Origin: Methylophilus sp. 14
Lineage (GTDB): Bacteria > Pseudomonadota > Gammaproteobacteria > Burkholderiales > Methylophilaceae
Direction: 5' to 3'
Assembly: GCF_015354345.1 (NCBI RefSeq)
Contig: NZ_JADKYS010000002.1
Span: 558,001-622,000, forward strand
DNA: 64,000 bases
The position numbers and the translations under genes are program-made. Of this stretch, positions 4,656 through 52,186 are shown one piece after another; the stretch's first letter is position 1; each line of letters begins with the position of its first letter. The notes beneath the pieces were generated by a model that saw only the letters and a program-made list of their open reading frames with translations, was not told the origin of the DNA and searched no databases.

Positions 4656-5238
4656 TTTTCGCTTTTTCAGCGAGTTACTTTTCTTTGCTTGCCCAAAGAA
4701 CAAGTAACCAAAAGAAATGCACCCCAGCTTCCGCTTATTTCCTGTGCTACTCGGCTTGCCGGGCGGCCATCGAAACTCGCCCTAGCGGCTTGCACACTGC
4801 GCAAGCCACCGCGGAACTCGAACAGCCGATGGCCGACTGCTCCCGCCAATCCTGCGTTGCTCGGCGCGGCAGATGGGGACCCCGAACACCATACGACTGC
4901 AATCATTAGCGAATTGAAGAAAAAATGAATCTGGTTTTTAACCGTCCAAACTGTAGTTGTGCTGCTTAAATGAGAAGAATCCCATTCCATCACGCTGAGT
5001 AGCGGAGACAAAATAAGAGAAGAGGGAGCGACTGTTTGAGCTCCGCGGCAGCTTGCGTATTGTGCAAGCTGCTAGGGCGAGTTTCGTGAACGGCTTATGC
5101 CTAAGTCCAGCAAAGCATCGGACGAAAGTCCTAGGCTGAGCAACGCAAGGGAGCCGAAGGCCGTGATGGCTGGGTGTCGTCCTCTTTGGTTACTTTCTGG
5201 GGGACAAGCACCAGAAAGTGACTCGCCAACAGGCGAAA
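4656..5238 (+). repeat. Large palindromic intergenic element, copy 1 (A half then B half)
   Basis: This fills the gap between the convergent gst and phoH genes; I see no credible gene here. The outer ends are inverted (TTCGCT..AGCGAGTTAC at 4658 and GTGACTCGCC..GGCGA at 5219-5236). Each half carries an end hairpin around a TTTGCTTG or GGTGCTTG sequence. Each also has a central stem-loop: GGCTTGC/GCAAGCC (4787-4807) in the left half, GCAGCTTGC/GCAAGCTGC (5048-5072) in the right. The middle holds TTTTTAACCGTCCAAACTGT, shared with the copies at 37.2 and 51.6 kb. Translated frames across it are not conserved as protein. It may be a non-autonomous mobile element or a structured RNA or terminator. 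Confidence 0.85.
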
Positions 5239-5340
5239 CAAAATGATGCTTAAACGCACGACACCTAAAGATTAGAAGAGTTGTTTTTCCAACATCATCC
5301 AGAGGTTTTGAGTTGGCTGGCGCACCAGCCTTAAAAGTGA

Positions 5341-6294
5341 TCAGTCACTTTTCTGCGCCGTTTGCTCAAATTTCTCATAGGCATTAATAATCTTCTGCAC
5401 TAACGGATGTCTCACCACGTCCTGCGACATAAACTGGGTAAAGGCAATCCCCTTCACATCCTTGAGAATCTTCTGCGCTTCTACCAAGCCGCTTTTCTGG
5501 TGACGCTGCAAGTCGATCTGCGTCACGTCGCCGGTAATGACGGCTTTGGTGCCAAAGCCAATGCGGGTTAAAAACATCTTCATCTGCTCTGGCGTAGTGT
5601 TTTGCGCTTCGTCCAGAATAATAAAGCTCTGGTTCAAGGTGCGGCCACGCATATAAGCGAGCGGGGCGACTTCAATCGCACCGCGTTCAAACATTTTGTT
5701 CACGGTGTCATAGCCTGCCAGGTCATACAGCGCGTCATACAACGGGCGCAGGTAGGGGTCGACTTTTTGGTTCAAGTCGCCCGGCAAAAAGCCTAGGCGC
5801 TCACCGGCTTCGACCGCTGGGCGGACTAACACGATTCTTTTCACGCGGTCGCGCGTCATGGCATCCACAGCGCTGGCGACGGCCAGGTAAGTTTTACCAG
5901 TACCGGCAGGGCCGATACCAAACGTGATGTCGTGGTCTTGAATCTGTTGCAAATAACTGACTTGGCGCGGCGTACGGCCATGCAAGTCGCCGCGCCGCGT
6001 CATGAGTGTCGGCATGTTACTGCTGGCGACTTCTTCGGGTTTGAGTTTGTCGATTTCTACCAGGCCCAGTTGAATATCTTCGAGCTCGATGGGTTTTTTG
6101 GCGCGTGCGTAAAAGTTTTCCAGCATTTGTGCGGCCAAACGCATATTGGTTTGCGTACCGCTCAGGTAAAACGTGCTGCCGCGACGGTTGATATCAATGT
6201 CCAGGCCGTTCGCTAACTGGCGGATGTTCTCGTCCAGCGGGCCACATAAGTTGGCCAGCATCAGGTTGTCTTCAGGGCTTAATGTAATTTCCAT
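5341..6294 (-). CDS. ybeZ: PhoH-like NTPase (YbeZ type)
   Basis: The protein has 317 residues. An N-terminal KH-like segment (about 1-100) precedes a P-loop NTPase domain with Walker A GPAGTGKTYLA near 133 and Walker B FIILDEAQNTTPEQMK near 226. PhoH/YbeZ proteins bind nucleotides and RNA and act with the YbeY endonuclease in ribosomal RNA maturation and quality control. The gene starts two bases after the miaB stop, so the two form an operon. The usual next gene, ybeY, is not here but about 14 kb away at 20492. Its 3' end faces repeat copy 1. Confidence 0.9.
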   Translation of the reverse strand: MEITLSPEDNLMLANLCGPLDENIRQLANGLDIDINRRGSTFYLSGTQTNMRLAAQMLENFYARAKKPIELEDIQLGLVEIDKLKPEEVASSNMPTLMTRRGDLHGRTPRQVSYLQQIQDHDITFGIGPAGTGKTYLAVASAVDAMTRDRVKRIVLVRPAVEAGERLGFLPGDLNQKVDPYLRPLYDALYDLAGYDTVNKMFERGAIEVAPLAYMRGRTLNQSFIILDEAQNTTPEQMKMFLTRIGFGTKAVITGDVTQIDLQRHQKSGLVEAQKILKDVKGIAFTQFMSQDVVRHPLVQKIINAYEKFEQTAQKSD

Positions 6295-6296
6295 GC

Positions 6297-7634
6297 TTAA
6301 TTCACAATTTCGCCAACCAGGCGATGGGGGTTGTAGACGTCGGTGATTTTGACCTGCACCATCTGGTGGATAAAACGCGCATCGGCGGCAATATCCACGA
6401 CACGGCCGTTGTCGGTTTTCCCGGCCAGCAGGCTAGGATCTTTCCATGACGGGCCGTCAATCAGCACACGTTGCACCGTGCCTAACATGGCGCGACTAAT
6501 GGCATCGCCATTGGTTTCGTTTTCAGTTTGCAGTTGCTTGAGCCAGGCCGCTTTGTCGGCTTGCGGGGTTTCGTCAGGCAGGTAGCTGGCTGGCGTGCCC
6601 GGGCGCGGGCTATACAAAAAGCTAAAGCTGTAATCAAAGCCCACGTCGCGCATGAGTTTGAGCGTCGCCTGAAAGTCCTTTTCGGTTTCGCCCGGGAAAC
6701 CGACAATGATGTCGCTGGTAATCGTTAATTGCGGGTTGGCGGCTTTGAGTTTTCGGATCAGGCCTTTGTATTGCAATGCCGTGTAGTTGCGTTTCATCGC
6801 CATCAAAATACGGTCGCTGCCAGCTTGGACTGGTAAATGTAATTGATTCGCCAGTTTGGGCACATTGGCATGGCAGGCAATCAGGCGCTCGTTCATCTCG
6901 TTGGGATGGCTAGTGGTATAGCGGATGCGCTCGATTTGCGGAATCTCGGCCACCGTTTCAATCAGCATGGCCAGGTCGGCCTCTATGCCTTGATACTGCA
7001 CGCGGTAGGCGTTGACGTTTTGTCCCAGCAGCGTGATTTCTTTGACGCCTTGTTCAGCCAGTTGGATGGCTTCGGTCAGGATGTCTTCAAATGGGCGCGA
7101 GAACTCCTCGCCACGGGTGTAAGGCACCACGCAAAAGCTGCAATATTTGCTGCAGCCTTCCATGATGCTTAAAAAAGCAGTCGCGCCTTCGATGCGTGGT
7201 GGCGGCAAGTGGTCAAACTTTTCAATCTCGGGGAAAGTGATGTCGACTTGCGGCTTGTTTTCGGTCTGTTTGGCTTTAATCAGGTCTGGCAGGCGATGCA
7301 GGGTTTGCGGGCCGAAAACCACGTCCACATAAGGTGCGCGTTTGATAATGGCGTCGCCTTCCTGGCTGGCCACGCAACCACCGACGCCAATCACCAGGTT
7401 GGGGTTTTTCTCTTTGAGCGGAATCATGCGGCCCAGATGACTGAATACTTTTTCTTCAGCTTTTTCGCGTACCGAGCAGGTGTTGAGCAGGATGACATCG
7501 GCTTCTTCCATATTGTCGGTCTGGGTCATGCCGTCATGCTCACGCATCAAGTCCACCATGCGTGACGCATCGTATTCGTTCATCTGGCAACCAAACGATT
7601 TAATGAATATCTTTTTACCGCTGTCCTGCTTCAT
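6297..7634 (-). CDS. miaB: tRNA-2-methylthio-N6-dimethylallyladenosine synthase
   Basis: This radical-SAM methylthiotransferase converts i6A37 to ms2i6A37 in tRNAs that read U-starting codons. It has 445 residues. The N-terminal UPF0004 domain carries three cluster cysteines ([28 protein letters not shown]). The radical-SAM motif is CSKYCSFC near 157-164, followed by TRGEEFSRP. The C-terminal TRAM domain (about 380-443) ends LVGEIVN. It is the first gene of a miaB-ybeZ operon and is divergent from cysG across a gap of about 110 bp that must hold both promoters. Confidence 0.95.
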
Positions 7635-7743
7635 TGCACGCTAAATTTCTCACAAAAACAGTATTTTAGCGTATTTGCAGATGAAACCCCAGCGCGCTTG
7701 GCGACTGCGGTAAAATAGGCATCTTTCAATTGAGCGTTGTTTC

Positions 7744-9135
7744 ATGCAAGCCTTACCGATTTTTTTCAATATTGCGCAACGCCTGTGTATCGTCATTGGC
7801 GGCGGTGATGTGGCGACACGCAAGGTGCTGATGCTGCGCAAGGCGCAAGGTCAGGTGACGGTGATTTCACCTGTTTTGTGTGATGAATTGCGCGTGTTGT
7901 TTGAGCAGGGCGAGATTCAGTATGTGCAGGCTGAGTTTCAGCCTGAGCAACTGACCAGTGCTTGCCTGGTGATTGCAGCCACCGATGATGAGGCTGTGAA
8001 TGAAGCTGTGTCTGTTGCCGCCAAACGCTTGAATATCCCGGTCAATGTGGTCGATGCGCCTGCATTATGTACGTTTACCATGGGCTCTATCATAGACCGT
8101 AGCCCGGTAGTGATTGCGGTCTCCAGTGAAGGCAATGCGCCGGTATTGGCGCGGCATATCCGCAGCAAGATTGAAACCATGTTACCTGCGGCCTACGGCC
8201 GGATTGCGGCGATTGCAGGTGAGTTTCGCGAGCAGGTCAAAGCCAAATTCAGCAATATGCCTGCCCGCCGCCGTTTTTGGGAGGATGTGCTTAACGGGCC
8301 CTTGGTTGAGCGCGTATTGTCTGGTCAGGAGCAGGCGGCGCGTGAGTTGTTGGGCGAGTTGTTGAGCCAAAGCGAAGATGCGCCCACACGCGGCGAAGTG
8401 TATCTGGTGGGCGGCGGCCCTGGGGATCCTGATTTGTTAACGTTCAGGGCCTTACGCCTGATGCAGCAATGCGATGTTTGTGTCTATGACAAACTCGTCA
8501 GCAAAGAGGTGATGGAGTTGGTGCGCCGTGATGCGGAGCTGATTTATGTCGGTAAATCACGCGACCAGCATACGTTGCCGCAAGAGGAAATTAACCAGTT
8601 GCTGGCCAGGTTGGCGCTGGAGGGCAAGCGTGTATTGCGCCTCAAAGGCGGTGACCCGTTTATTTTTGGCCGCGGTGGCGAAGAGATTGAAACCCTGATG
8701 CAGCGCGGTGTGCCGTTCCAAGTGGTGCCCGGCATCACAGCCGCCAATGGCGTGTCGAGTTATGCGGGTATTCCGCTCACACACAGGGATTATGCGCAAG
8801 CCTGTTTGTTTATTACCGGCCACCTCAAAGACGGCACCATAGACCTGGATTGGCAAGCCATGGCACGCCCGAGGCAGACGGTGGTGATTTACATGGGCTT
8901 GGTGGGGCTGGAGCAGATCTGTGCCAAACTGATTGCGCAAGGCGTGCCGCCTGAGATGCCTGCAGCGGTGATTCAGCAAGGCACGACGCAGAAGCAACGT
9001 GTGGTGGAATCGACCTTGAAAAACCTGGCAGCTGATGTGGCTGCAGCCGGGTTGAAGCCACCGAGCCTGACCATTATTGGTGAAGTTGTGCAGCTACGCT
9101 CACGTTTGAACTGGTTTACGCCAGACGGCGAATAA
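7744..9135 (+). CDS. cysG: Siroheme synthase (uroporphyrinogen III methyltransferase/precorrin-2 dehydrogenase/ferrochelatase)
   Basis: One polypeptide makes siroheme, the cofactor of sulfite and nitrite reductases, from uroporphyrinogen III. The 463 residues match full-length CysG. The N-terminal CysG(B) dehydrogenase/chelatase domain has the NAD motif IGGGDVATRKV near 18. The C-terminal SAM-methyltransferase domain carries VGGGPGDPDLLT near 222, RLKGGDPFIFGRGGEE near 300 and VPGITAANG. Its stop codon is one base from the end of the convergent sensor kinase gene, so transcription of the two could interfere. Confidence 0.95.
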   Translation: MQALPIFFNIAQRLCIVIGGGDVATRKVLMLRKAQGQVTVISPVLCDELRVLFEQGEIQYVQAEFQPEQLTSACLVIAATDDEAVNEAVSVAAKRLNIPVNVVDAPALCTFTMGSIIDRSPVVIAVSSEGNAPVLARHIRSKIETMLPAAYGRIAAIAGEFREQVKAKFSNMPARRRFWEDVLNGPLVERVLSGQEQAARELLGELLSQSEDAPTRGEVYLVGGGPGDPDLLTFRALRLMQQCDVCVYDKLVSKEVMELVRRDAELIYVGKSRDQHTLPQEEINQLLARLALEGKRVLRLKGGDPFIFGRGGEEIETLMQRGVPFQVVPGITAANGVSSYAGIPLTHRDYAQACLFITGHLKDGTIDLDWQAMARPRQTVVIYMGLVGLEQICAKLIAQGVPPEMPAAVIQQGTTQKQRVVESTLKNLAADVAAAGLKPPSLTIIGEVVQLRSRLNWFTPDGE

Positions 9136-9136
9136 A

Positions 9137-10450
9137 TCAGGCGTTAGGTAAGATTGGGAGTGATAATCTGGCTTCCAGGCCGCCTTCGCTACGGTTAAGG
9201 AGCGCCAACTGGCCGCCATGCAGGGTAGCAATGCGGTTGCAAATCGCCAGCCCCAAGCCGCTGCCGCCTTCATATTTGTTGCGGGCGCTGTCCATGCGTT
9301 CAAACGGGCGCAACAAACGCTCCGCGTGCTCGGGCGGGATGCCGGGGCCGTTGTCGAGCACACTGATGACGATCTTGTCTGCCATGACTTGGCTGCGTAC
9401 TTCCACTTTGCCTTTGCCGTAGTTGTAGGCATTGCCGACCAGGTTGTCGAGCAAGCGCTGCATGGCCAGCGGCCGGATAGGAATAAAATATTTAGGCCCC
9501 AGGGATACTTTTAACTCACGTCCTGCACGGCGTTGACGCTCAGCCAGCGCATGTAACAAGTCGTTGATGTCCATCATACGGGTGGGCTCACCTTCCACGC
9601 CTCGCACAAAATCCAGGAACTGGTGAATGATATTGTCCATGTCGGAAATATCTTCAATCATGCCGTGTTTCATATAGTCAGCATCAGGCGGCAACATTTC
9701 TACCGCCAGCCGCAAGCGTGCCAAAGGCGTACGGATATCATGCGACACCCCCGCCAATAACAAGGTGCGCTCGGCATCTAGTCGCGCCAGTGATTCGGCC
9801 ATTTCGTTAAAAGTATGCGTCACTTCGCGCAACTCCTCCACGCTGTCTTCCGGCAGTTTGGGCGCTGGTTCGCCATTGCGCAAACGCTGGGCTGCATGCA
9901 CCAGCATAGTGAGTGGGCGATTAATGCGCGCAGTCAGCAGGTAGGCGCCGACCAGTGACAGCAAGCCCACCACGGCAGCCCAGCCCAGCCAATGCCAGGG
10001 GAAAGGGCGGTCAACCTGGATTTTGGGAATCACCACCCAGAAGTCATCCTGGCCGACATTAAAGCTGATCCAGAGGCCGGGAATGTCGTAATGATTGACG
10101 GTGATAATGGTTTCTTCACCCAGGCGCTCACGGATTTTTTGCGCGACCAGGTTGATAAACGGGTCTAGCGGCAGCGGCTCAATGTCTTCGAGGAAGTCTG
10201 CCGCATAAACGCGCACGCCTTCACGGCCGGACAGTTCTGATAGCAAGGCCAGGCGCCGATTTTCATGGGAGGCAATGAGCGAGGCGCGGGTGTAGTTGAC
10301 GATGGTGACTGCCTGCAAGGCAGCCGCTGTTGCGCGTGGTTCGCGGTCAAAATAATCAAAGATTTTGAGCGAGGCATAGATACTGACGGCCAACAAAATG
10401 GCAATCAGTAACATGATGCGGGACAGCAGTCGGCGAGGCAGTAAGCGCAC
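9137..10450 (-). CDS. EnvZ-like sensor histidine kinase
   Basis: The protein has 437 residues. Two transmembrane segments (about 8-30 and 148-170) bracket a periplasmic sensor region. A HAMP linker and a HisKA domain follow (GVSHDIRTPLARL, phospho-acceptor His near 233), then an HATPase domain with N box NLVGNAYNYG, G1 DNGPGIP and G2 GSGLGLAI. The architecture matches EnvZ/OmpR-class kinases. The start codon is GTG at 10450 with only a weak ribosome site, 24 bases after the response regulator. The partner is the adjacent regulator. The stimulus (osmolarity, envelope or other) cannot be read from the sequence. Confidence 0.88.
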   Translation of the reverse strand: MRLLPRRLLSRIMLLIAILLAVSIYASLKIFDYFDREPRATAAALQAVTIVNYTRASLIASHENRRLALLSELSGREGVRVYAADFLEDIEPLPLDPFINLVAQKIRERLGEETIITVNHYDIPGLWISFNVGQDDFWVVIPKIQVDRPFPWHWLGWAAVVGLLSLVGAYLLTARINRPLTMLVHAAQRLRNGEPAPKLPEDSVEELREVTHTFNEMAESLARLDAERTLLLAGVSHDIRTPLARLRLAVEMLPPDADYMKHGMIEDISDMDNIIHQFLDFVRGVEGEPTRMMDINDLLHALAERQRRAGRELKVSLGPKYFIPIRPLAMQRLLDNLVGNAYNYGKGKVEVRSQVMADKIVISVLDNGPGIPPEHAERLLRPFERMDSARNKYEGGSGLGLAICNRIATLHGGQLALLNRSEGGLEARLSLPILPNA

Positions 10451-10474
10451 GTGAATGAGGCTTAGGCAAGGCGC

Positions 10475-11200
10475 TTATTGCGGCGCTTCGCCATCTGGAA
10501 TAAACACATAACCAAAGCCCCACATGGTTTGCAGGTAGCGTGGATGTGCCGGATCTGGCTCGATAATGCGGCGCAAGCGTGATACTTGCACATCAATACT
10601 GCGGTCGAATACATCCAGTTCGCGGCCACGTGCCAGTTGCATCAGGCGGTCACGCGACAAGGGCTGGCGCGGATGCTCGGTAAATACTTTTAATAAGGTG
10701 AATTCGCCACTGGTAATGGTGATCGGTGCGCCATTCTTAGTCAGGCTGCGTGTGTTGATGTCAAACACAAATTCACCAAACTGGAACGCAGCACTTTTTT
10801 CTTCAACCGCCTGTTTAGGGGTGATTTCATGGCGACGCAATACGGCATTAATCCTGGCCAGTAATTCACGTGGATTAAACGGTTTAGGCAGGTAGTCGTC
10901 AGCCCCCATTTCCAGGCCAACGATGCGGTCAACTTCATCGCCACGTGCGGTCAGCATGATAATCGGCGTCATATGGTTGGCACCCCGCAGGCGGCGGCAA
11001 ATGGCCAGGCCATCTTCGCCAGGCAACATCAGGTCTAGAATCAGCAGGTCAAAGCTTTCGGCAGACATGGCTTTGTCCAGCTCTTTGCCATCGGAAACGG
11101 ATTTGATATTGAATCCCTGTTCAGTCAGGTAGCGCTGTAAAAGTTCGCGCATACGCAAATCATCATCAACCATCAATATTTTTTTTAACTGTTCTGCCAT
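10475..11200 (-). CDS. OmpR-family response regulator
   Basis: The protein has 241 residues. The receiver domain carries the acidic pocket DDDLR near 13 and phospho-acceptor Asp in LLILDLMLPGEDG near 56. The switch Thr is in MLTARGDEVDR, and the conserved Lys in DYLPKPFNPREL. The C-terminal winged-helix DNA-binding domain runs from about 140 and ends in SRLRRIIEPDP and the wing TMWGFGYVFIPDG. It resembles OmpR closely and is transcribed ahead of its cognate kinase. Targets are not identifiable here. Confidence 0.9.
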   Translation of the reverse strand: MAEQLKKILMVDDDLRMRELLQRYLTEQGFNIKSVSDGKELDKAMSAESFDLLILDLMLPGEDGLAICRRLRGANHMTPIIMLTARGDEVDRIVGLEMGADDYLPKPFNPRELLARINAVLRRHEITPKQAVEEKSAAFQFGEFVFDINTRSLTKNGAPITITSGEFTLLKVFTEHPRQPLSRDRLMQLARGRELDVFDRSIDVQVSRLRRIIEPDPAHPRYLQTMWGFGYVFIPDGEAPQ

Positions 11201-11645
11201 ACGTACCTTTTTACACAGAAGCGTGCGTTTTGTTAACGCGTCTGGCCGTGATCAGGATGACCTGACAGCAAATGCTAAAACGGCTCAGCCATAAAACTTA
11301 TCTTTATTATTATACTCCAAGCAGTATCTTGCATGAAGTGGGGTGGTTACAACTTGGTTACAAATAGCGCGGGGGATGAAATATTGCATTTACAATCCTG
11401 TTGCAAGATGACTGCCTGAAATTGACAGTAATGGCGATGAAAGAATCGCTATTTTTTGTTAAATCAGTTGATGCCGCGACCAGAGTTGCGTTATGTTAGG
11501 CAGCCTGATTTTAAAGTCAGGCAATATCTGTCATGTTAATCGTGCTTGGTTCTACTTGAAAAAAGTGTTTTTCAAAAGCTTGTGTTTCAAAAAGCTTTAA
11601 GTGAAGCAAGAATTAGTGAAACAAGAATGAAGGTATTACGTTTGG
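11201..11645. other. Divergent intergenic region with near-tandem duplications
   Basis: This 445-bp gap lies between the divergent ompR-like gene and the EF-hand gene and must contain both promoters. A hairpin (GCCTGA/TCAGGC, 11503-11522) is visible. Just before the EF-hand gene there are two adjacent imperfect duplications: about 17 bp at 11565-11581 and 11582-11598, and about 15 bp at 11601-11615 and 11616-11630. I see no credible gene. Confidence 0.55.
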
Positions 11646-12266: not shown

Positions 12267-12367
12267 CAATATTCTGGCTAAGCCGCTGTTCTATGTCTAT
12301 CTACATGCCAACCTCAGCCCCGGCGTGTCTTTTTTCTTATCTGCGTCTCATCGGTGCTTAACGCCAT

Positions 12368-13513: not shown

Positions 13514-13641
13514 TTGGCCGCCGATGAACGCAGATGCACGCCGATAAAGGCGCATTGGTTTTAGCCGCAGATAAGTAGGTAAACAGGGAGGGCAATTTTG
13601 GCAAGCTGCTTAAGAGCAATGACGTTGGCACTGCTTATGGG
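13514..13641. repeat. Intergenic stretch with a possible degenerate repeat
   Basis: Bases 13517-13548 hold a near-repeating phrase (GCCGATGAACGCAGATG followed by CACGCCGATAA). From memory, similar ATGAACGC-type intergenic repeats occur in other proteobacteria. The rest, up to the start of repeat copy 2, shows nothing I can interpret. Confidence 0.3.
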
Positions 13642-13862
13642 CCCCATCTGCCGCGCCGAGTAGCGCAGGCGAAGTGGGTGTATTCGGCCATCGGCTGTCC
13701 GAGTTCCGCAACAAGCCATGCTTTGTGTGGCTTGTCAGGGCGAGTTTCGATGGACGCCCGCTTTGACGAGCAACGCAGGAATCAAGCGGAAGCTGGGGTG
13801 CATTTCTTTTGGTTACTTATTCTTTGTGCAAGCAAAGAAAAGTAACTCGCCTACAGGCGAAA
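13642..13862 (-). repeat. Palindromic intergenic element, copy 2 (solo A half)
   Basis: This is a single half-unit read on the minus strand. Its outer end is CTCGCC-TACA-GGCGA (13846-13860) and its inner end is CCCCATCTGCCGCGCCGAG at 13642. The arm hairpin is ACAAGCCA/TGGCTTGT (13711-13735), a stem different in sequence from most other copies but again fully paired. The B half present in the other three copies is absent. It sits between two convergent genes (acyltransferase and SDR). Frames read across it are not real proteins. Confidence 0.8.
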
Positions 13863-13883: not shown

Positions 13884-14576
13884 TCACCAAGGAATCCTTT
13901 TCCCATCATAAGCAATAAACTCCCCCGATTGCGCACTGTTTAACCCCTCAATCACCAGCCGTAACCCACGCACACTGGTTCCCGTATCAATCAATCCATT
14001 CGGCCCACCCATATCCGTACGCACCCAGCCCGGGTGCAAAGCTGCCACCTTGATATTGAATTCGCGCAGGTCTAGCGCCAGGCTTTTTACCACCATATTC
14101 AAGGCAGTTTTGCTGCTGCGGTAAATATATTCCCCTCCGCTGCCATTGTCTTCTATGCTGCCCATTTTGCTGGTCATGGCGATCAATTTCGCCTGGTTGG
14201 CACGGCGTAGTTGCGGTAAAAAGGCTTCTGCAAGATAGTAAGTGGTGAGTGTATTGACCTGAAATGCGTGTAACCAGGCCTGTGGGTCGGTTTTACCGAA
14301 TGCGCTGTCAGGGTAAGTGCCCGCATTGCTGATGAGAATATCGATTGTGAGTGCCGATAACTGCCCCGCCAGATCACGAATGGCGCTCACATCGCTTACG
14401 TCCAGCGCCAATACCTGGATGTTCGTGTGTTTGGCCGCCAATTGTTGCAGCGCGGTTGCCTTGGCCGGGTCGCGCACGGTGGCATATACCTGTTGACCGC
14501 TTTCGGCATATTGTTTGACATATTCCAACCCAATACCACGGTTGGCACCTGTGATTAAAATCGTTTGTGTCGTCAT
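13884..14576 (-). CDS. Short-chain dehydrogenase/reductase (C-factor-like SDR)
   Basis: This 230-residue Rossmann-fold oxidoreductase has the cofactor motif TGANRGIG near 9, NAG at about 84, and the catalytic Ser/Tyr/Lys arrangement (AMTSKMGS near 135, then YIYRSSKTALN near 150). HPGWVRTDMGG follows the active site. It fits the classical SDR group near the C-factor/CsgA-like proteins. The substrate is unknown; the Arg following the first Gly-rich turn and ATVRDP after strand 2 are compatible with NADP. It starts at ATG 14576 with GAGG upstream and is divergent from the TIGR03790 gene. Confidence 0.85.
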   Translation of the reverse strand: MTTQTILITGANRGIGLEYVKQYAESGQQVYATVRDPAKATALQQLAAKHTNIQVLALDVSDVSAIRDLAGQLSALTIDILISNAGTYPDSAFGKTDPQAWLHAFQVNTLTTYYLAEAFLPQLRRANQAKLIAMTSKMGSIEDNGSGGEYIYRSSKTALNMVVKSLALDLREFNIKVAALHPGWVRTDMGGPNGLIDTGTSVRGLRLVIEGLNSAQSGEFIAYDGKRIPW

Positions 14577-37198: not shown

Positions 37199-37742
37199 TT
37201 CGCCTTTTCGGCGAGTTACTTTTCTTTGCTTGCACAAAGAACAAGTAACCAAAAGAAAGTGCACCCCAGCTTCCGCTTGTATCCTGCGTTGCTCGTCAAA
37301 ATAAGCGGTCACGAAACTCAACCTTGTAGCTCACACAGAACGTGAGCTACTGCGGGATTCGAACAGTCGCTCCCTTCTTCCTTATTTTGCCTGCGCTACT
37401 CGGCGCGGCAGATGGGGACCCCGAACACCATGCGACTGCAACCGTCGGTGGTTATAAGAAAAGAGTTTGTTTTTTAACCGTCCAAACTGTGGTGCAGCTA
37501 CTTAAATGAGAAGAATCCCATTCCATCACGCTGAGTAGCGGAGACGAAGTGGGAGTAGTCGGCCATCGTCTGTTCGAGTTCCGCGGTGGCTTGCGTCTTT
37601 TGCAAGCCGCTAGGGCGAGTTTCGATGGACGCCCACTTTGTTGAGCAACGCAAGGGAGCCGTAAGGCCGTGATGGCTGGGTGCCCTCTTTTTGGTTACTT
37701 TTTTGGGGCAAGCAAAAAAAGTAACTCGCCAACAAGGCGAAA
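37199..37742 (+). repeat. Large palindromic intergenic element, copy 3 (A half then B half)
   Basis: This fills most of the 780-bp gap between recO and pdxJ. Outer ends are CGCCTTTTCGGCGAG (37201) and CTCGCCAACAAGGCGA (37725-37740). The left arm hairpin is GTAGCTCAC/GTGAGCTAC (37326-37350), the right one GGCTTGC/GCAAGCC (37588-37608). The centre holds TTTTTAACCGTCCAAACTGT and, in the B half, ATGAGAAGAATCCCATTCC, both also in copy 1. This is the only copy lying between two genes in the same direction. I see no gene inside. The remaining 190 bases up to pdxJ show nothing else recognisable. Confidence 0.85.
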
Positions 37743-44751: not shown

Positions 44752-44766
44752 TCACACGTTTGTTTA

Positions 44767-44811: not shown

Positions 44812-44818
44812 AACCGCC

Positions 44819-46861
44819 ATGAAAAATACCACGCCTGCTCTGCTTGACAGAGACCTTAGCATTCTCAGTTTTAATGCCCGTGTACTGTCTTTAGCGCAGC
44901 GAGAGGACTATCCCTTACTCGAGCGTTTACGTTTTTTATGTATCGTTTCTAACAACCTCGATGAGTTTTTTGAGGTACGCATGCCCTTGCAGATGGAGGC
45001 TTACCAGCAAGGGGTGACCAGTGGCCCGGTGTCGGCCAGCACTTGTGAGCAAGTGGCCGAGATGGCGCAAGCGCTAGTAGCGCAACAATACCAGTTGTTT
45101 AATGATGCGCTGATGCCCGCCCTGGCTAAACAAAGCGTGCACCTGGTGTCTGGCGGTGTGCGTACACCGGAGCAAACCACCTGGGTTTCTAACTACTTCA
45201 AGCGCGAAGTGTTGCCATTTTTAATGCCGGTCTCGCTGGATCCATCGCATCCGTTCCCGCAGGTGGCCAATAAGTCGCTCAATTTTATTGTGCGTATTGC
45301 TGTTGATGACGAAGAAAAAATTGCCATTGTGCGTGTGCCGCGAGTGGTGCCGCGGCTGGTGCAGTTGCCGCCGTCTATCAGCAAAGGCGAGCAATGCTTT
45401 GTGTCATTGACCAGTATTATCCGCGCCAATCTGGAAGTGCTATTCCAGGGCGCCAGCATCCTGCATTTCTCCCAGTTCCGCGTCACGCGTAACAGCGATC
45501 TCGAGGTGGATGAAGATGATGTCATCAACTTGCGTACAGCCTTGCGTGAAGAACTGGCGCATCGCCAATATGGTGAAGCCGTGCGCCTGGAAGTCACACA
45601 GGAATGTGATGATACGCTGGCCGAGTTTCTGCTCAAGCAGTTTAACTTGCCGCCGCTCGCGCTTTACCGTGTTAACGGGCCGGTCAATTTGGGGCGTTTG
45701 ATCCAGTTGCCAGACATGGCCAAGGGCGACCACCTCAAGTTTGTGCCTTTCCAACCGCATTGGCCGCGACATATCAAACGTAATACCTCCTTGCTGGCAC
45801 AGATGCGTGAAAAAGACCTGTTGATTCACCAGCCTTACGAGAGTTTTGAGGTGGTGATCCAGTTACTGGAAGAAGCGGTCAAAGACGATCAGGTGTTGGC
45901 CATCCGCATGACGATTTACCGTACCGGTGCCGATCCTCGCATGTTGCGCTTGCTGCAAGAGGCCGTGCGCCGTGGCAAAGAAGTGCTGGTGGTGGTGGAG
46001 CTCAAAGCGCGCTTTGACGAAGAGGCAAACATTAACTGGGCGGAGGCCTTGGAGTCGGTTGGTGCGCAAGTGGTGTATGGTGTGGTTGGTTTAAAAACAC
46101 ATGCCAAAATGTTGCTCATCATGCGTAGAGAAGGCAAAGTGATACACCGTTATGGCCATCTTTCTACTGGTAACTATAACCCCAAAACCACACGCCTATA
46201 TACAGACTGGAGCATGCTGACTGCGGATGCCAACCTGACACGCGAAATGGAAACGGTGTTCCGCCACCTGACCAGCGAGTTGCCGATTCCGGCCCTGAGA
46301 CATTTGCTGGTGGCACCATTTACCCTGCAAAACAGCATGATCAAGCAACTGGAGAAAGCCCAGCGCCTGGCGAAACAGGGCAAACCGGCCAGGGTGATTG
46401 CCAAAATGAACGCCTTGACGGATGTGCCCTTGGTGGCGGCCTTGATGAAGGCTGCTAGCGCAGGTGTGGAGATTGACTTGATTGTGCGTGGTGCCTGCAT
46501 CTTGCCAGTCGACTCACCCGCAGTCAAAGGCCGTATCCGCGTGCGTTCTATCGTCGGGCGCTTGCTGGAACATTCACGCGTGTTTTATTTTGAACTGGAT
46601 GGACAAGTGCAGATGTGGCTATCCAGCGCCGATTGGATGAGTCGCAATATGATGCGGCGGGTTGAGCTCGCCTGGCCTATTAAAGATCCTGCCATGCAAA
46701 GCCGCATTTACCAGGAAAGCCTGCAGCTTTACCTGCAAGATAATAAAGATGCCTGGCAATTGGCAGAAAAAGGCCGGTATGTGCCTGTGGCACAATTGGC
46801 GCAGGATGCCGAGCCGCTGTCTTGCCAGAACCTGTTATTGCAACAATATCATTCCATGTAG
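44819..46861 (+). CDS. ppk: Polyphosphate kinase 1
   Basis: The 680-residue enzyme reversibly polymerises the ATP gamma-phosphate into inorganic polyphosphate. N-terminal LLDRDLSILSFNARVL near 8 and SNNLDEFFEVRM near 43 are family marks. The catalytic His region HRYGHLSTGNYNPKTTRLYTD is near 441 and LIVRGACIL near 557. The four PPK1 domains are intact. It is followed 9 bases later by sixA; ppx is 2.1 kb downstream on the other strand. Confidence 0.95.
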   Translation: MKNTTPALLDRDLSILSFNARVLSLAQREDYPLLERLRFLCIVSNNLDEFFEVRMPLQMEAYQQGVTSGPVSASTCEQVAEMAQALVAQQYQLFNDALMPALAKQSVHLVSGGVRTPEQTTWVSNYFKREVLPFLMPVSLDPSHPFPQVANKSLNFIVRIAVDDEEKIAIVRVPRVVPRLVQLPPSISKGEQCFVSLTSIIRANLEVLFQGASILHFSQFRVTRNSDLEVDEDDVINLRTALREELAHRQYGEAVRLEVTQECDDTLAEFLLKQFNLPPLALYRVNGPVNLGRLIQLPDMAKGDHLKFVPFQPHWPRHIKRNTSLLAQMREKDLLIHQPYESFEVVIQLLEEAVKDDQVLAIRMTIYRTGADPRMLRLLQEAVRRGKEVLVVVELKARFDEEANINWAEALESVGAQVVYGVVGLKTHAKMLLIMRREGKVIHRYGHLSTGNYNPKTTRLYTDWSMLTADANLTREMETVFRHLTSELPIPALRHLLVAPFTLQNSMIKQLEKAQRLAKQGKPARVIAKMNALTDVPLVAALMKAASAGVEIDLIVRGACILPVDSPAVKGRIRVRSIVGRLLEHSRVFYFELDGQVQMWLSSADWMSRNMMRRVELAWPIKDPAMQSRIYQESLQLYLQDNKDAWQLAEKGRYVPVAQLAQDAEPLSCQNLLLQQYHSM

Positions 46862-46870
46862 TGCCGCGCG

Positions 46871-47335
46871 ATGTCAGTTAAAAATTTGATTTTATGGCGT
46901 CATGCCGAAGCCGAAGTGTTATTGCACGGCGCCTCTGACCTTGAGCGCGCGCTGACCAAAAAAGGGCATAAGCAGGCCAAGCAAATGGCTAGCTGGCTCA
47001 AGAAATACCTGCCAAAACAGACGTATGTGCTGGTGAGTCCTGCGGTGCGTACGCGTGAAACGGTGGCTTATTGGGGCGATGATTGGCAAGAGGATAGTCG
47101 GCTGGCGCCTGAAAGGCCATTGGAGCCTTTATTACAGTTGCTGGCGCAAAGTCCGTTTGAGACCGTGATGCTGGTCGGCCACCAGCCCTGGATAGGAGAA
47201 CTGGCAGCGCAAAGCCTGGGCATGCCAGACGGGCAGATCAGTATTAAGAAAGGTGCAGTGTGGTGGTTGCGGCTACCAAAATCGGGGCCACCCTATAAAT
47301 TATATAGTGTGCAAAGCCCCGATCTGATTGAGTAA
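46871..47335 (+). CDS. sixA: Phosphohistidine phosphatase SixA-like
   Basis: The 154-residue histidine-phosphatase-fold protein has the catalytic RHG-type motif LWRHAEAE near 9, LTKKGHKQAKQMASWL near 28, and the second catalytic His in VMLVGHQPWIGELA near 100. SixA dephosphorylates His-phosphorylated proteins such as ArcB or PTS components in other bacteria. Its target here is unknown; the tandem position with ppk is the main context. Start ATG 46871 follows the ppk stop by 9 bases. Confidence 0.85.
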   Translation: MSVKNLILWRHAEAEVLLHGASDLERALTKKGHKQAKQMASWLKKYLPKQTYVLVSPAVRTRETVAYWGDDWQEDSRLAPERPLEPLLQLLAQSPFETVMLVGHQPWIGELAAQSLGMPDGQISIKKGAVWWLRLPKSGPPYKLYSVQSPDLIE

Positions 47336-47379
47336 GCGGTGACTATGACCTGGCTACTTTAAGTCAGGTGCATGCAGGC

Positions 47380-47895
47380 TTATTTCTTTGGTCTGCCGGT
47401 TTTAATCGTTGGCACGGCCGCCATCGCTGCTTTCAACGAAGCGTCATCCATTGCTGATAGCAGCTTCAAGCCTGCTCTCAACAGTTCGCTCTTCTTGGCT
47501 GGTTTGGCCAGGCCTTCGAGGCGTTTTTTCAAGGTGGCGATTTGCGCATACTCTTCTTTTGGCATGGTGAAGCTGTCGCGCTCCATTTTTACCTTGCTGG
47601 CTTTGGGTTTGTCTTTTTCAGTCGTTGTCGCTGTTTTGTTCACCACTTTAATGGCTGAGCTGGCAGGGGCCACTTTTTTCGCAGCAACTGCTGTTTTTGC
47701 AACGGCTTTGGCAATCGGCTTGATCGCAGGTTTGGCCGTGGCTGGTTTAACAGTAGAGGGCTTTGCAGCAACAGGTTTCGCGCTGGCAGGCGTAGCAGCA
47801 ACTGGTTTAGTTGCGACTGGTTTGGCTGGGCTGCTAGTTTTTGCAGTGGCTGGTTTATTGGCGCTCAAGGGTTTGGCGACTGGTTTGCTGGCCAT
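47380..47895 (-). CDS. Histone-H1-like Lys/Ala/Pro-rich protein
   Basis: The 171-residue basic protein is divided in two. Residues 1-100 are low-complexity Lys-Pro-Ala repeats (AKPVAAKP, ATKPVAATP type), like eukaryotic H1 tails and AlgP/Hc proteins. Residues about 101-171 form a compact conserved-looking domain starting MERDSFTMPKEEYAQI, with a Leu-rich helix LKKRLEGLAKPAKKSELLRAG and an AT-hook-like end GRPKK. It probably binds DNA non-specifically. The coding strand is chosen because AGGAG precedes the ATG; the opposite frame gives only a hydrophobic shadow. DNA repeats make length variation likely. Confidence 0.75.
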   Translation of the reverse strand: MASKPVAKPLSANKPATAKTSSPAKPVATKPVAATPASAKPVAAKPSTVKPATAKPAIKPIAKAVAKTAVAAKKVAPASSAIKVVNKTATTTEKDKPKASKVKMERDSFTMPKEEYAQIATLKKRLEGLAKPAKKSELLRAGLKLLSAMDDASLKAAMAAVPTIKTGRPKK

Positions 47896-48038
47896 GTGGT
47901 TCTCCTGAATTGATATTGTGAAAACAGTTTATACCGTTTTTTTCTAACGTCAATTGTCATAAATATTTCATATTTGTATGGTGTTATAGAGGCTGTTTTT
48001 CATGACAAAATGCAGCACCTTTAATCAGGGAGTATGAG

Positions 48039-48659
48039 ATGCGCAGGGTATTGGTGGCAAATACCAAAGGAGGCTGCGGTAAAACCACTCTGGCCACTAA
48101 TCTTGCTGGCTATCTGGCGCAACTGGGGCACAAAATCGTGCTGGAAGATATTGACCGCCAGCAGTCTTCAGCTGACTGGCTGGCGCGCCGCCCATCGCAT
48201 GTTGCCACAGTGTTTAATGCCGAAGACCTTGGTAAATCTGCCTTACAGAAAGCGGATTGGGTGATTACTGACTCACCGGGCGGGCTGCGGGACAAAAAGA
48301 TTTCTGATGCGGTGACCGAGGCTGACCTGGTATTGGTGCCGATTGCGCCATCTGCATTTGATATTGGGGCCACGCAGGACTTTTTAGAGTTGCTGGCCGA
48401 AGAAAAAGCCGTGCGCAAGCACAAGACGTTTGTTGGCCTGGTCGGCATGCGTGTGATGCCTCGTACGCGCTCAGCAGAGCGCCTGCTGGCATTTATGGAT
48501 GAGTCAGGCTTTGCCGTGCTTTCCATGCTGCGTTCATCGCAGATTTATGTGACGGCAGCGGAGGAAGGCTTAAGTATTTTTGAATTGTCGAACAGCTTGA
48601 AAGAGGTCGACATTGCGCAGTGGAATCCGGTTACAGACTGGATTCTGCAAAACAGTTAA
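48039..48659 (+). CDS. ParA/MinD-family ATPase
   Basis: The 206-residue P-loop ATPase has the deviant Walker A VANTKGGCGKTTLATNLA near 6-23, with the signature Lys before the Gly pair. The switch-I-like DIDRQQSSADWL is near 37, and Walker B VITDSPGGLRD near 76. It is close to orphan ParA proteins that position cargo or plasmids. There is no ParB or parS in the window. The next gene, 38 bases on, is a small charged protein that could be its partner. A short but clear GGGAG lies 7 bases before the ATG. Confidence 0.88.
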   Translation: MRRVLVANTKGGCGKTTLATNLAGYLAQLGHKIVLEDIDRQQSSADWLARRPSHVATVFNAEDLGKSALQKADWVITDSPGGLRDKKISDAVTEADLVLVPIAPSAFDIGATQDFLELLAEEKAVRKHKTFVGLVGMRVMPRTRSAERLLAFMDESGFAVLSMLRSSQIYVTAAEEGLSIFELSNSLKEVDIAQWNPVTDWILQNS

Positions 48660-48697
48660 AGCGAGCCTGTGACAAACAGGGAATCAAAGGGAGTGCT

Positions 48698-48943
48698 ATG
48701 AAAGACAAAGTGAATCCGGTGTATCTGGATAAGGTAAAACAATTGAGCGCAGACGAGGCCGAGCGTATTTTGTCACGTATGGGTGGCAAATTGCCTAAGC
48801 GTTTTATCAAGGAAAAGCTAAGCCAGGAAGAAGCGCTGGCCTTGCAGCTTGAGATTGAGGATGAACAATTGCAGGAGTGGCGCGATAAGGTGGTCAAGCT
48901 GCGCGAAGAAGACGAAAAGCGCGACAAGAAGAAAAAAGACTGA
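48698..48943 (+). CDS. Small charged protein paired with ParA-like ATPase
   Basis: The 81-residue protein is hydrophilic and probably all-helical (KVKQLSADEAERILSRMGGKLPK, then EEALALQLEIEDEQLQEWR) and ends in a lysine-rich tail (EKRDKKKKD). I do not recognise a family. It starts at 48698 with AAGGGAG upstream and ends before a terminator, so the ParA-like gene and this one form a two-gene unit. A ParA regulator or cargo adaptor is a guess from position only. Confidence 0.75.
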   Translation: MKDKVNPVYLDKVKQLSADEAERILSRMGGKLPKRFIKEKLSQEEALALQLEIEDEQLQEWRDKVVKLREEDEKRDKKKKD

Positions 48944-48960
48944 GTCAAAATTAACTAAAT

Positions 48961-48988
48961 AAAAAACGGGCATCAAGGCCCGTTTTTT
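48961..48988 (+). terminator. Rho-independent terminator
   Basis: AAAAAACGGGC and GCCCGTTTTTT form an 11-bp stem with a 6-base loop, ending in a run of T. It lies between the convergent small charged gene and ppx and should work in both directions. Confidence 0.92.
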
Positions 48989-49002
48989 ATTTAACTGTTT
49001 TG

Positions 49003-50481
49003 TTAACTGTGCCGGATTTCCAGCTGCCAGCCCAGTTTTTGCCATAACAGGCATTCTTCTTCCAGCAGGTAATGGGTTTGCGGATGCTGGCTGGCCCATT
49101 GTGACGACAGTGCCAGGATAAATTGCTGTTTATGGCGCTCCAACTGCAAGTGTTTGAGCGCTGGCAGGCGGCGCGAATGGCAGAAAATTACTGCCAAACG
49201 CAAGGCCATAAGCTGGCAGACCAGGTCCTGGTTATCGAAGTCTGCCGCCAGTTTGCGTAATTTGCCCTGATGGCCAAGCACCAGCAGGCTGATGGTATGC
49301 AACTCACTTTGTGCAAAGCCCATCAGTTCTGTGTTATCCAGGATGTAGGCGCCGTGTTTATTGCAGTCAGTGTGGGAAATGGCCCAGCCAATTTCATGAC
49401 ACAGCGCCGCCCAGTGCAACAGTGGTTTCTGGCTATCGCAAGCTTGCATGGCGTCATAAAAATACAAGGCGAGCTTGCTCACATTGTTGGCGTGGTCCAT
49501 TTCGACGCCAAAGCGTTTACATAGCCGCGCAATCGATGCCTTGCGCAAATCTTCGGTCGCATGGTCAGAGCTCAGCATGTCATACAGTACGCCGTGGCGC
49601 AGCGCACCGTTGGCGACCAGCAGGGTGTCTAGTTTGAGCGTGTCGAATACCGCCGTCAGTACGGCTAGGCCGCCACCAATCACGGCGCGCCTGTCATCTT
49701 TGAGGCCTTCCATATTCAGGCGGTCGGCCGTTTTGGCCTTAATTAAAATTTGTTTCAGCCACTCCAGTTGTGTGCGCTCAATGCGATCGGTCGCAAACCC
49801 TGCACCGGCCAAGACATCCGCCACGGCGCCCACTGTGCCCGAGGCGCCATACGCTACTTCGGACTGGCCGACATAACGATTGGCAATCATGTCGATGATA
49901 GATTCGGCAGCAATTTCAGCACGCTCAAAGTTGCGCTCGCTAAACTGGCCATCGGCAAAATATTTTTGTGACCAGCCCACAGAGCCCAAACGCAAGGATT
50001 CGGTGACGTTGGCCTTGAAATGCTGGCCGAGGATAAACTCGGTAGAGCGCCCGCCGATATCTACTACCAAGCGTTTTTCGTCTGATTGCGGCAGCATGCG
50101 GCTCACGCCTTGGTAAATCAGGCGCGCTTCCTCCACGCCGGAGATAATCTCAATCGGATAGCCGAGTACTTTTTGTGCCTGTTTGATGAATTCGTCGCTA
50201 TTGGCGGCTTCACGCAAGGTTTGCGTGGCAACCGCGCGTACATGCTCAGGTGCAAACCCTTTCAGGCGCTCGCCAAAACGGGCCAGGCATTTCAGGCCGC
50301 GCTCAAACGCCTGCGGTTTCAGGTTGCGTTCTTCATCCAGGTCGCCGCCTTGTCGCACAGCTTCTTTTAAATAGTCGACACGTAGAATCTGGCCGTCCAC
50401 AACGCGCCCGATTTCGAGGCGAAAACTGTTGGAACCCAAGTCTACGGCAGCGAGTTGGGTGTCATGAGTAATATTTAGCAT
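49003..50481 (-). CDS. ppx: Exopolyphosphatase (Ppx/GppA family)
   Basis: The 492-residue enzyme removes terminal phosphate from polyphosphate or pppGpp. The N-terminal actin-like ATPase fold has AAVDLGSNSFRLEIGRVV near 12 and VVDIGGRSTEFILG near 140. The C-terminal HD-type domain contains HWAALCHEIGWAISH near 344. Together with ppk it makes a polyphosphate synthesis/degradation pair. It follows the conserved hypothetical gene by 17 bases and probably shares its promoter. Confidence 0.93.
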   Translation of the reverse strand: MLNITHDTQLAAVDLGSNSFRLEIGRVVDGQILRVDYLKEAVRQGGDLDEERNLKPQAFERGLKCLARFGERLKGFAPEHVRAVATQTLREAANSDEFIKQAQKVLGYPIEIISGVEEARLIYQGVSRMLPQSDEKRLVVDIGGRSTEFILGQHFKANVTESLRLGSVGWSQKYFADGQFSERNFERAEIAAESIIDMIANRYVGQSEVAYGASGTVGAVADVLAGAGFATDRIERTQLEWLKQILIKAKTADRLNMEGLKDDRRAVIGGGLAVLTAVFDTLKLDTLLVANGALRHGVLYDMLSSDHATEDLRKASIARLCKRFGVEMDHANNVSKLALYFYDAMQACDSQKPLLHWAALCHEIGWAISHTDCNKHGAYILDNTELMGFAQSELHTISLLVLGHQGKLRKLAADFDNQDLVCQLMALRLAVIFCHSRRLPALKHLQLERHKQQFILALSSQWASQHPQTHYLLEEECLLWQKLGWQLEIRHS

Positions 50482-50498
50482 GCGATAATACGGGTAGG

Positions 50499-50771
50499 TT
50501 ACTTAAGGTAGCGGTTAATGGCCTTGGGGTATTCTGGAAAATAGCGTTCAATCACGCTTAAATCAAAGCTTCTCAAAATACTGGTGTTAGATTCGCGGTC
50601 GAGCAAAAACTGGAAAGAAGCCGCCACCAGCTCGGCAACGTTGTGCTTGGCATCGAGCAACGGATCCGCATAATCAGGTTTGACACTGACTTGATGCGTA
50701 GTGATGTGCGACCCATGTACCGTGACAGAAAACGAGTTCGGACTGGTTTCAGTCACTTCAATAGTCGCCAT
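50499..50771 (-). CDS. Conserved hypothetical protein, 90 aa
   Basis: The 90-residue protein begins MATIEVTETSPNSFSVTVHG and has a conserved C-terminal half: ELVAASFQFLLDRESNTSIL followed by SFDLSVIERYFPEYP. Similar short proteins are widespread in proteobacteria without known function. The start at 50771 is supported by GGGGAGG 6 bases upstream; the frame extends to 50879 without a ribosome site. It is the first gene of a unit with ppx. Confidence 0.75.
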   Translation of the reverse strand: MATIEVTETSPNSFSVTVHGSHITTHQVSVKPDYADPLLDAKHNVAELVAASFQFLLDRESNTSILRSFDLSVIERYFPEYPKAINRYLK

Positions 50772-50927
50772 GCTTGCCTCCCCAGACAAATGCTGCAAAC
50801 AGTATAAATCGTTATGTTGGCAGAGGCCAGTGAAACTAATATGAAAATGAAACTGCATAGGCAGGCTTGATTTCATCAAACCGTCATGTCAAAAAAATAA
50901 CATCAAAAAAACTCTAAGATACTATTT

Positions 50928-51614
50928 ATGCGTCACTTATTTTACCTCGTATGCTTACTTTGCATTGCCCACAATGCCAATGCTGCACGCCCATTGGTCA
51001 CCGATGATGCGCGTTTGACCAATGCCCATGGCTGCCAATTGGAAAGCTGGATGCGCAGCTATAAAGGCGGCCAGGAGCTATGGGCACTGCCTGCGTGCAA
51101 TTTGGGTGAGAATTTTGAAATTACCCTGGGTGGCGGCAGCTATCGTAATAGCGATGACAACTATCACACTGAAGATTGGGTGGCCCAATTTAAGACCCTG
51201 TTTAAACCGCTGGAAACCAACGGCTGGGGCATAGGCTTTGCCGCCGGGCGCGTCATGCATCCGGATATTCAGCCTGGGCCCAACCAGTTGGGGAATACCT
51301 ATTTTTATGTGCCGATTTCTTTCTCGCTGCGTGATGACGACGTGATTGTGCATGTCAACGTTGGCATGCTGCGCGACCGGCAAGAAGACCGCAACAAGGT
51401 CAATATGGGCGTAGGCTCAGAATTTAAACTTGGCGGCAACTTTAAAGGCGTGGCGGAGGTGTTTGGTGACCACACGCAAAATCCTTTTTATCAATTTGGC
51501 TTACGTTATTCGCTGGTGCCGGAGGTGTTCCAGATCGATGGCACAGTGGGGCAGCAGGTGAATGGGGATAGTCAGATGCAGTGGTTGTCGATTGGGGTGA
51601 GGTGGACACCGTAG
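50928..51614 (+). CDS. Predicted outer-membrane beta-barrel protein
   Basis: The 228-residue protein has a signal peptide (LFYLVCLLCIAHNANA). Alternating hydrophobic/aromatic stretches (LGENFEITLGGGSYR, NTYFYVPISFSL, FYQFGLRYSLVP) and a terminal aromatic strand ending SIGVRWTP suggest a small outer-membrane barrel. The mature start, RPLVTDDARLTNAHGCQLE, recurs in a family of hypothetical beta-proteobacterial exported proteins. Function unknown. It ends 27 bases before repeat copy 4. Confidence 0.7.
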   Translation: MRHLFYLVCLLCIAHNANAARPLVTDDARLTNAHGCQLESWMRSYKGGQELWALPACNLGENFEITLGGGSYRNSDDNYHTEDWVAQFKTLFKPLETNGWGIGFAAGRVMHPDIQPGPNQLGNTYFYVPISFSLRDDDVIVHVNVGMLRDRQEDRNKVNMGVGSEFKLGGNFKGVAEVFGDHTQNPFYQFGLRYSLVPEVFQIDGTVGQQVNGDSQMQWLSIGVRWTP

Positions 51615-51640
51615 GGGTTGGTTTTCTCAAATAATATTTT

Positions 51641-52186
51641 TTCGCCTTTAGGCGAGTCACTTTCTGGTGCTTGTCCCCCAGAAAGTAACCAAAGAGGACG
51701 ACACCCAGCCATCACGGCCTTCGGCTCCCTTGCGTTGCTCAACAAAATAAGCCGGTCACGAAACTCGCCCTGACAAGCCACACACTTCGTGGCTTGTTGC
51801 GGAGCTCAGACAGTCGTTCCCTCTACTCTTATTTTGTTTCCGCTACTCAGCGTGATGGAATGGGATTTATCTCATTTAAGTAGCAGCGTGGAAATGTGGA
51901 CTGTTTAAAAACCATATTCTGTTTTATTGAATTAGCTAGCGGTTGCAGTCGCATGGTGTTCGGGGTCCCCATCTGCCGCGCCGAGTAGCGCAGGCAAAAT
52001 AAGGAGAAAGGGAGCGACTGTTCGAATCCCGCAGTAGCTCACGTTCTGTGTGAGCTACCAGGTTGAGTTTCGTGACCGCTTATTTTGACGAGCAACGCAG
52101 GGAACAAGCGGAAGCTGGGGTGCACTTTCTTTTGGTTACTTATTCTTTGTGCAAGCAAAGAAAAGTAACTCGCCGTAAGGGCGAAA
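51641..52186 (-). repeat. Large palindromic intergenic element, copy 4 (inverted)
   Basis: This copy is in opposite orientation to copies 1 and 3: B half first, A half last. Outer ends are CGCCTTTAGGCGAG (51643) and CTCGCC-GTAA-GGGCGA (52169-52184). Arm hairpins are ACAAGCCAC/GTGGCTTGT (51773-51797) and GTAGCTCAC/GTGAGCTAC (52034-52058), both perfect 9-bp stems with 7-base loops. The inner marker GGGGTCCCCATCTGCCGCGC at about 51962 matches copy 2. It lies between convergent genes and explains the whole 618-bp gap. Confidence 0.85.

Follow-up and report, generated by a model that had tools for sequence, protein, structure and literature searches.

The stretch analysed here, 64,000 nucleotides of the Methylophilus sp. 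14 genome (contig NZ_JADKYS010000002.1, positions 558,001 to 622,000; hereafter the window), carries an intergenic palindromic element whose arms each form a single fold of about 210 nt. Reread by eye and with blastn, the window holds three two-armed copies and one solo arm. The original prediction counted the element four times; its places were right and its three two-armed copies stand, while the fourth (13642-13862) is a single arm, D. Copy A (4656-5238) lies between a GST-like gene and phoH, copy B (37199-37742) lies between recO and pdxJ, and copy C (51641-52186) is copy B inverted, with 84% identity by blastn. All seven window arms match R1, a covariance model of the arm with 215 positions, from end to end. 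These are A-left (L type, 4670-4881, minus strand, 219.6 bits), A-right (R type, 4978-5226, plus, 146.6 bits, with a short insertion in the alignment), D (L type, 13639-13850, plus, 214.6 bits), B-left (L type, 37211-37420, minus, 206.4 bits), B-right (R type, 37514-37729, plus, 214.9 bits, with a rod-like fold), C-left (R type, 51652-51867, minus, 204.7 bits) and C-right (L type, 51964-52173, plus, 209.4 bits). The centre of copy B (37421-37513) is assigned no strand, and no sigma-70-like promoter was found between 37100 and 37850. Across the same genome the whole 544-base query is matched at 25 places, with partial matches at further ones. One L-type and one R-type arm are joined head to head in all 25 full copies, whose centres leave no room for a gene. 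The outer ends of copy B are inverted as predicted, over 43 nt with 77% complementarity. A separate repeat, GATGCCCACGCGG..TTGTGGTTGTTTGT, occurs at window positions 4580-4640 and flanks roughly half the copies in this genome on the outside, adjoining many L-type arms.

Read from the centre outwards, an arm runs through CCC, stem P-a, the motif GAGNANCG, stem P-b, an apical hairpin H3 and P-b', and returns through a second GAGNANCG facing the first, a small hairpin, P-a', GGGTG, hairpin H2 (GGTTACTTT..CAAGC..AAAGTAAC) and, beyond it, hairpin H1 (CGCC..GGCG). H3 is the variable part, with a 9 bp stem and a 7-nt loop in most Methylophilus arms. In copy B it lies at 37326-37350 (minus; GTAGCTCAC stem, 7-nt loop) and at 37586-37610 (plus; GTGGCTTGC/GCAAGCCGC, with one U.G). 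The variable stems had been described as all fully paired; the named stems are present, but the GCGGCTTGC/GCAAGCCAC type, on the strand as read, has one C.A step, which is U.G on the opposite strand. H2 of copy B occupies 37215-37250 (minus) and 37693-37725 (plus). At the two ends H1 and a T-rich tract form terminator-like sites that face inwards, at 37199-37215 (plus) for transcripts coming from the left and at 37725-37741 (minus) for those coming from the right. Of 77 longer arms from other genera, 47 have GAGNANCG twice and 16 have it once, and 23 have CAAGC close to the 3' end; the letters are thus typical rather than universal.

That the folded form of the arm is conserved is supported by pairing that outlasts sequence change. 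From 153 collected stretches, the 110 with a recognised end were kept, and removal of Methylophilus arms longer than 235 nt before dereplication left 37 arms. Two of these with long inserts, L065 and L067, were excluded, and the other 35 form alignment A1, whose structure was supplied by hand and whose helix 4 is H2. The apical region of an arm in L067 holds another long palindrome (L067:1497-1961, genome G087). A second alignment, A2, comprises 85 matches outside Methylophilus (84 distinct) from 48 chosen loci at E 1e-8, fitted to the model; A1 includes six non-Methylophilus arms whose places recur among the A2 rows, which therefore contain training sequences. In A1, 93.5% of cells are paired against 75.6% after shuffling (none of 500 shuffles was as high), and covariation is 0.534 against 0.213 (sd 0.009). 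In A2, 95.4% of cells are paired with double changes in 40 of 42 pairs, and covariation is 0.478 against 0.121 (sd 0.005). The shuffles ignore kinship and the fitted alignment leans to the structure; safer guides are the variety of pair types and the controls in which the structure was slid along the alignment, which give 35-47% paired and covariation of 0.07-0.135 in A1 and covariation of 0.04-0.08 in A2. The weakest measure, further pair types in A1, is 68 against 61.4 after shuffling and was reached by three of 500 shuffles. RNAalifold returns -41.1 kcal/mol with double changes in 30 of 42 predicted pairs. As read from the letters, the facing GAGNANCG strands can pair through A.G, A.A and G.A mismatches, and in A1 the positions flanking A.A covary (columns 24-142: UA 23, CG 10, AU 1, other 1; columns 26-140: GC 21, AU 9, CG 2, GU 1, UA 1, other 1). 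The claims that pairing is maintained as sequence changes and that compensatory change exceeds random substitution are thus borne out, and the covariance model that the original prediction proposed, built as R1, finds matches far beyond this genome.

The pairs also carry a strand bias. G.T and A.C were scored equally on the centre-outward strand; the opposite strand would show each G.U as A.C. Counted in arms with a 28-nt H3, the 19 distinct Methylophilus H3 stems hold 13 G.U and one A.C, and 64 distinct H2 stems from other genera hold 20 G.U and one A.C. For the 19 distinct Methylophilus H2 stems a gapped symmetric count gives 11 G.U, two A.C and 16 other mismatches, whereas an ungapped count (15 G.U, 18 A.C) is spoilt by a bulge in L-type arms. 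Overall A2 shows 98 G.U against 16 A.C, in an alignment that leans to G.U because it is model-fitted. Folding energy does not pick a strand, since the z-scores of both B arms are similar on either (-3.3 to -4.5, single-strand fold). The excess of G.U over A.C on one strand alone favours a single strand, RNA or single-stranded DNA (ssDNA), over a two-strand cruciform. One single strand thus appears to be constrained, by a bias that does not separate RNA from ssDNA. Of the earlier proposal that the element is kept folded as RNA or cruciform DNA, the folded form therefore stands and the cruciform is disfavoured. There is indirect but strong support for selection or copying acting on the folded single strand. 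An independent hint on the strand comes from Pseudoalteromonas piscicida, whose arms are overlapped on the same strand by the Rfam family TwoAYGGAY (RF01731).

By DNA similarity the element seems to be a genus-bound repeat, which the structure model contradicts. In that comparison 18 of 31 genomes match, namely 17 of the 19 Methylophilus genomes and one weak outsider (G025, E 2e-4), and the pattern CAGATGGGGACCCCGAACACCAT matches 17 stretches, all from Methylophilus. R1, in contrast, matches 102 of 369 sampled genomes of the class, in 81 of 272 genera with Methylophilus included, and 73 of 398 sampled genomes of the phylum, 28 of them in one family outside the class; about six candidates per genome were scored in the class sample and about five in the phylum sample, which makes copy numbers there floors. 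Another genus (genome G142, loci L239-L244) has its own two-armed copies of about 540 bp, roughly 88-93% alike between copies and about 67% between inverted halves. Among plasmids, blastn finds four records with nine places, each match covering 48-65 bp of the query. On these stretches R1 scores 68.8 bits in Aeromonas, 53 in a Pseudoalteromonas sp. and 41.7 in Ilyobacter, and finds seven arms in P. piscicida. The Aeromonas record is 4.9 Mb long, so its plasmid label is doubtful, and the Ilyobacter plasmid places an arm match outside Proteobacteria, in Fusobacteriota. No phage match was found by blastn, the only scan applied to phages, and R1 finds nothing at E 1 in 20 kb of other loci.

Arms tend to stand in pairs. 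Across eight genomes with 89 arm matches, 70 have a neighbour within 2.5 kb, and the 38 neighbour orders comprise 29 (-,+), that is head to head, eight (+,+), one (-,-) and no tail-to-tail (+,-). The head-to-head gaps span 10 bp to 2.2 kb and 10 of them are at least 538 bp; the genomes were partly picked for spaced pairs, so the gene-bearing share is not a frequency. Some pairs in other genera surround small genes, as read in ten spaced pairs. A Pfam scan of 13 enclosed open reading frames (ORFs) gave none at the curated cut-off among the first seven and three among the other six: DUF4760, a nucleotidyltransferase domain and MUG113/T5orf172. Of ten enclosed ORFs scanned with PADLOC two match, both in L204 (1321-2249), where they resemble phage-defence candidates, one the nucleotidyltransferase PDC-S09 and the other the C-terminal part of PD-Lambda-1. 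An autonomous copy was considered and rejected: the centres in the Methylophilus sp. 14 genome are too small, and no transposase occurs among the 13 ORFs, which were picked by eye from the ten spaced pairs with no wider search made.

Within Methylophilus, what changes now is the arm sequence at fixed sites and its orientation. Regions syntenic to the window in genomes G007, G009 and G013 consist of blocks about 85-94% identical to it. The empty sites that had been proposed as a check are absent there, all window sites being occupied in these three species, with site D in G013 reduced to a 123-bp piece. G003 also has the element at site C and G017 a remnant at site A. The arms at these sites are exchanged. 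With the choice limited to the four window sites of each genome, an arm finds its closest counterpart in another species at its own site in only 30 of 81 comparisons, and arms at different sites are up to 97.3% alike, above the flanking blocks as measured against the window. Hairpin modules are exchanged likewise, the H3 stems ACAAGCCAC, GCGGCTTGC and GCAGCTCAC being found in both L and R arms, as are P-b types when classed by crude text patterns. Orientation is flipped at site B in G013 and at site C in G007. Homologous recombination from copy to copy would suffice to explain these exchanges and flips. Wider in the genus, recO was located in 21 of 22 genomes with the element beside it in five (in G006 the contig ends 34 bp after the gene and the site is not assessable), and phoH was located in all 22 with the element in eight. 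In species lacking it the gaps have diverged, and this patchy occupancy means that it was gained or lost deeper in the genus. All that remains at phoH in G002 and at recO in G017 is a hairpin, TTTCGCC-NNNN-GGYGAAA, which may be either scar or target. The form TTTCGCC-N3-7-GGCGAAA occurs at 14 places in seven of the 22 genomes and in none of Methylophilus sp. 14, G007, G009 and G013; a backwards control gives six places in five genomes, a modest excess. Lone TTTCGCC-NNNN-GGCGAAA hairpins lie at G002:C2:60115, a place that in relatives holds the element downstream of phoH, at G012:C12:172899 and at G017:C5:30731, among others, and the three of the 14 places that were checked for arms had none.

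We favour, at a probability of roughly 0.45, a model in which this is a non-coding two-armed element without its own enzyme, acted on in trans through its folded strand. Each arm, read from the centre outwards, encodes one conserved fold with a closing CCC/GGG, a rod broken by the facing GAGNANCG strands, an exchangeable apical hairpin and the 3' hairpin H2. Two diverged arms face away from a short centre in head-to-head order, or enclose small genes in some of the other genera. A factor of host or mobile origin would read the folded single strand and would have mediated spread; the wide distribution, the copy number and the gene-enclosing pairs point to such mobility. The Methylophilus sites in the window would by now be old, with recombination between copies keeping them alike, and the inward terminator-like ends would shield neighbouring genes, in keeping with the surplus of 3'-to-3' gaps between genes.

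Several observations weigh against this model. No insertion in progress is seen, sites A to D being occupied in Methylophilus sp. 14 and in the three relatives. None of the 25 full copies in the former has a target duplication, scanned as exact direct repeats of 4-12 bp within 3 bp of the ends with a shuffled expectation of about 0.6, a scan that would miss shorter or worn duplications. No mobilising enzyme was identified, and the enrichment of Y1_Tnp, matched in 78 of 102 arm-bearing genomes and 163 of 267 others, is weak (odds ratio 2.07, p 0.007, no kinship correction). The arm order has exceptions in two (+,-) neighbours in genome G740 and an alternating array in P. piscicida, and 19 of the 89 arm matches have no neighbour within 2.5 kb. 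The G.U-bearing stems are related and often share a position, so that they cannot each be counted as a separate event. Some pairs lie 10-11 bp apart and copy B shows no promoter-like site, which makes centre-outward RNA hard to account for.

The main rival, a doubtful one that nonetheless deserves serious weight, is a resident structured RNA or bidirectional transcription barrier at gene 3' ends, whose spread would be incidental. The H1 and T-rich strand would stop entering transcripts, the arms would fold as transcript 3' ends, and selection on expression would keep the copies. Such a role fits the context of 27 copies in the Methylophilus sp. 14 genome, of which crude ORF calls place 16 between convergent genes, nine in tandem and two between divergent genes; arm D was scored tandem there, but the gene to its right (13884-14576, minus) makes its site convergent. 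It fits equally the inward-facing sites at both ends of copy B, the strand-specific G.U bias and, in locus L169, an enclosed ORF whose end lies 34 bp ahead of a same-strand arm. It is at odds with the varying occupancy of the recO and phoH sites between species and with the swapping of arms between unrelated sites. The terminator-like matches in the copy B region number three, where shuffling gives a mean of 1.1 (sd 1.1), hardly an excess, and a terminator would need no covarying rod of 210 nt.

The original prediction of a transposase-mobilised element is so far not borne out: the 25 full copies have no room for an enzyme and lack the target duplications it proposed to look for, and the window sites are occupied in the three related species. 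An ordinary miniature inverted-repeat transposable element (MITE), with ends recognised and cut by a DDE transposase whose gene lies elsewhere, would share the inverted ends and the many intergenic copies, yet it is an unlikely description given the lack of target duplications, and recognition of double-stranded ends does not predict covariation that is strand-specific and spans the whole arm. Less probable again is a repeat resembling the repetitive extragenic palindromes and their mosaic elements (REP/BIME), moved on single-stranded hairpins by a Y1 (RAYT) transposase. The REP/BIME and REPIN elements of enterobacteria and Pseudomonas are likewise intergenic, palindromic, mosaic, present in many copies and arranged in alternating pairs (PMC2817692), and most arm-bearing genomes match Y1_Tnp. 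REP units, however, measure 20-40 bp (PMC3733652), as against a multi-helix arm of about 210 nt with a conserved internal motif and a model of 215 positions. Moreover, 24 of the 102 arm-bearing genomes have no Y1_Tnp match, among them G124 with its gene-bearing pairs, and the Methylophilus sp. 14 genome has one marginal match (E 6.7e-4); the case for Y1_Tnp as the mobiliser is accordingly weak. Templated mutation (quasi-palindrome correction) keeping the stems paired without selection on the fold would yield perfect stems of changing sequence, but is very improbable, as it predicts neither G.U over A.C on one strand, nor conserved internal mismatches, nor the same architecture across many genera.

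Other known systems share some of these traits. Integron attC sites have boxes of the form RYYYAAC (R'') and GTTRRRY (R'). Such box pairs occur in none of 110 Methylophilus arms and in one of 85 others, by a scan that recovers at most one attC-like repeat of the integron in the Methylophilus sp. 14 genome and is a weak test for that reason. A strand-specific fold, a variable terminal hairpin and cassettes beside the sites recall attC (PMC2727003, PMC6393395). Identity with attC was nonetheless rejected, as the arms are inverted around genes rather than direct (in the orders counted above) and the attC-like array of this genome looks unlike the arms, with no R1 match. That array belongs to a chromosomal integron (G000:C9:68313-69245 and L258:7674-12720, G000 being the Methylophilus sp. 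14 genome) with an integrase at 413 bits against a cut-off of 265 and up to nine attC-like repeats. The bcr1 repeat of the Bacillus cereus group is about 155 bp long and belongs to another phylum, and we know of no head-to-head bcr1 pairs enclosing genes. It resembles the element in being repeated and is named among mobile-like structured repeats (PMC3110155). The BRE of Bordetella and other Betaproteobacteria, repeated, mostly intergenic and present in relatives of Methylophilus, includes a locus that yields small RNAs; at 75-91 bp and often in tandem (PMC3110155), it is set apart by description, not by sequence. Rfam, with 4227 families, gives no match at gathering score in the window, and copy B searched to E 5 gives three unrelated weak matches. 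TwoAYGGAY, a motif listed for human gut, gammaproteobacteria and Clostridiales (Weinberg et al. 2010, PMC2864571), overlaps arms in the P. piscicida array of seven alternating arms (L182:1937-4233), with three above gathering score and four below. It covers the apical part of these arms and fails to match copy B even at E 5, the only copy of Methylophilus sp. 14 tested in this way. No account of the element was met in the literature, in a coverage that excludes most subscription journals and preprints.

In Methylophilus the fold is caught by no Rfam family, yet it is present in 102 of the 369 sampled genomes of the class. ORFs of at least 60 codons run through arms, and for that reason the element may well appear in annotations as spurious small genes. 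It is a tentative and on balance doubtful proposal that the element represents a new class of gene-carrying mobile element in Proteobacteria, without its own enzyme. Its ends would be large single strands in folded form, ssDNA or RNA, and a widely distributed factor would read them; small genes would be carried between inverted arms, arms would be copied into existing arms and the variable apical hairpin would be an exchangeable module. If one factor does read the strand, finding it would explain both the spread of enzyme-less repeats and the carriage of small genes. If the arm is instead an RNA 3' end, it would represent a large class of transcript ends so far without assignment. Under both readings, the arm model allows the question to be tested in one genome after another.

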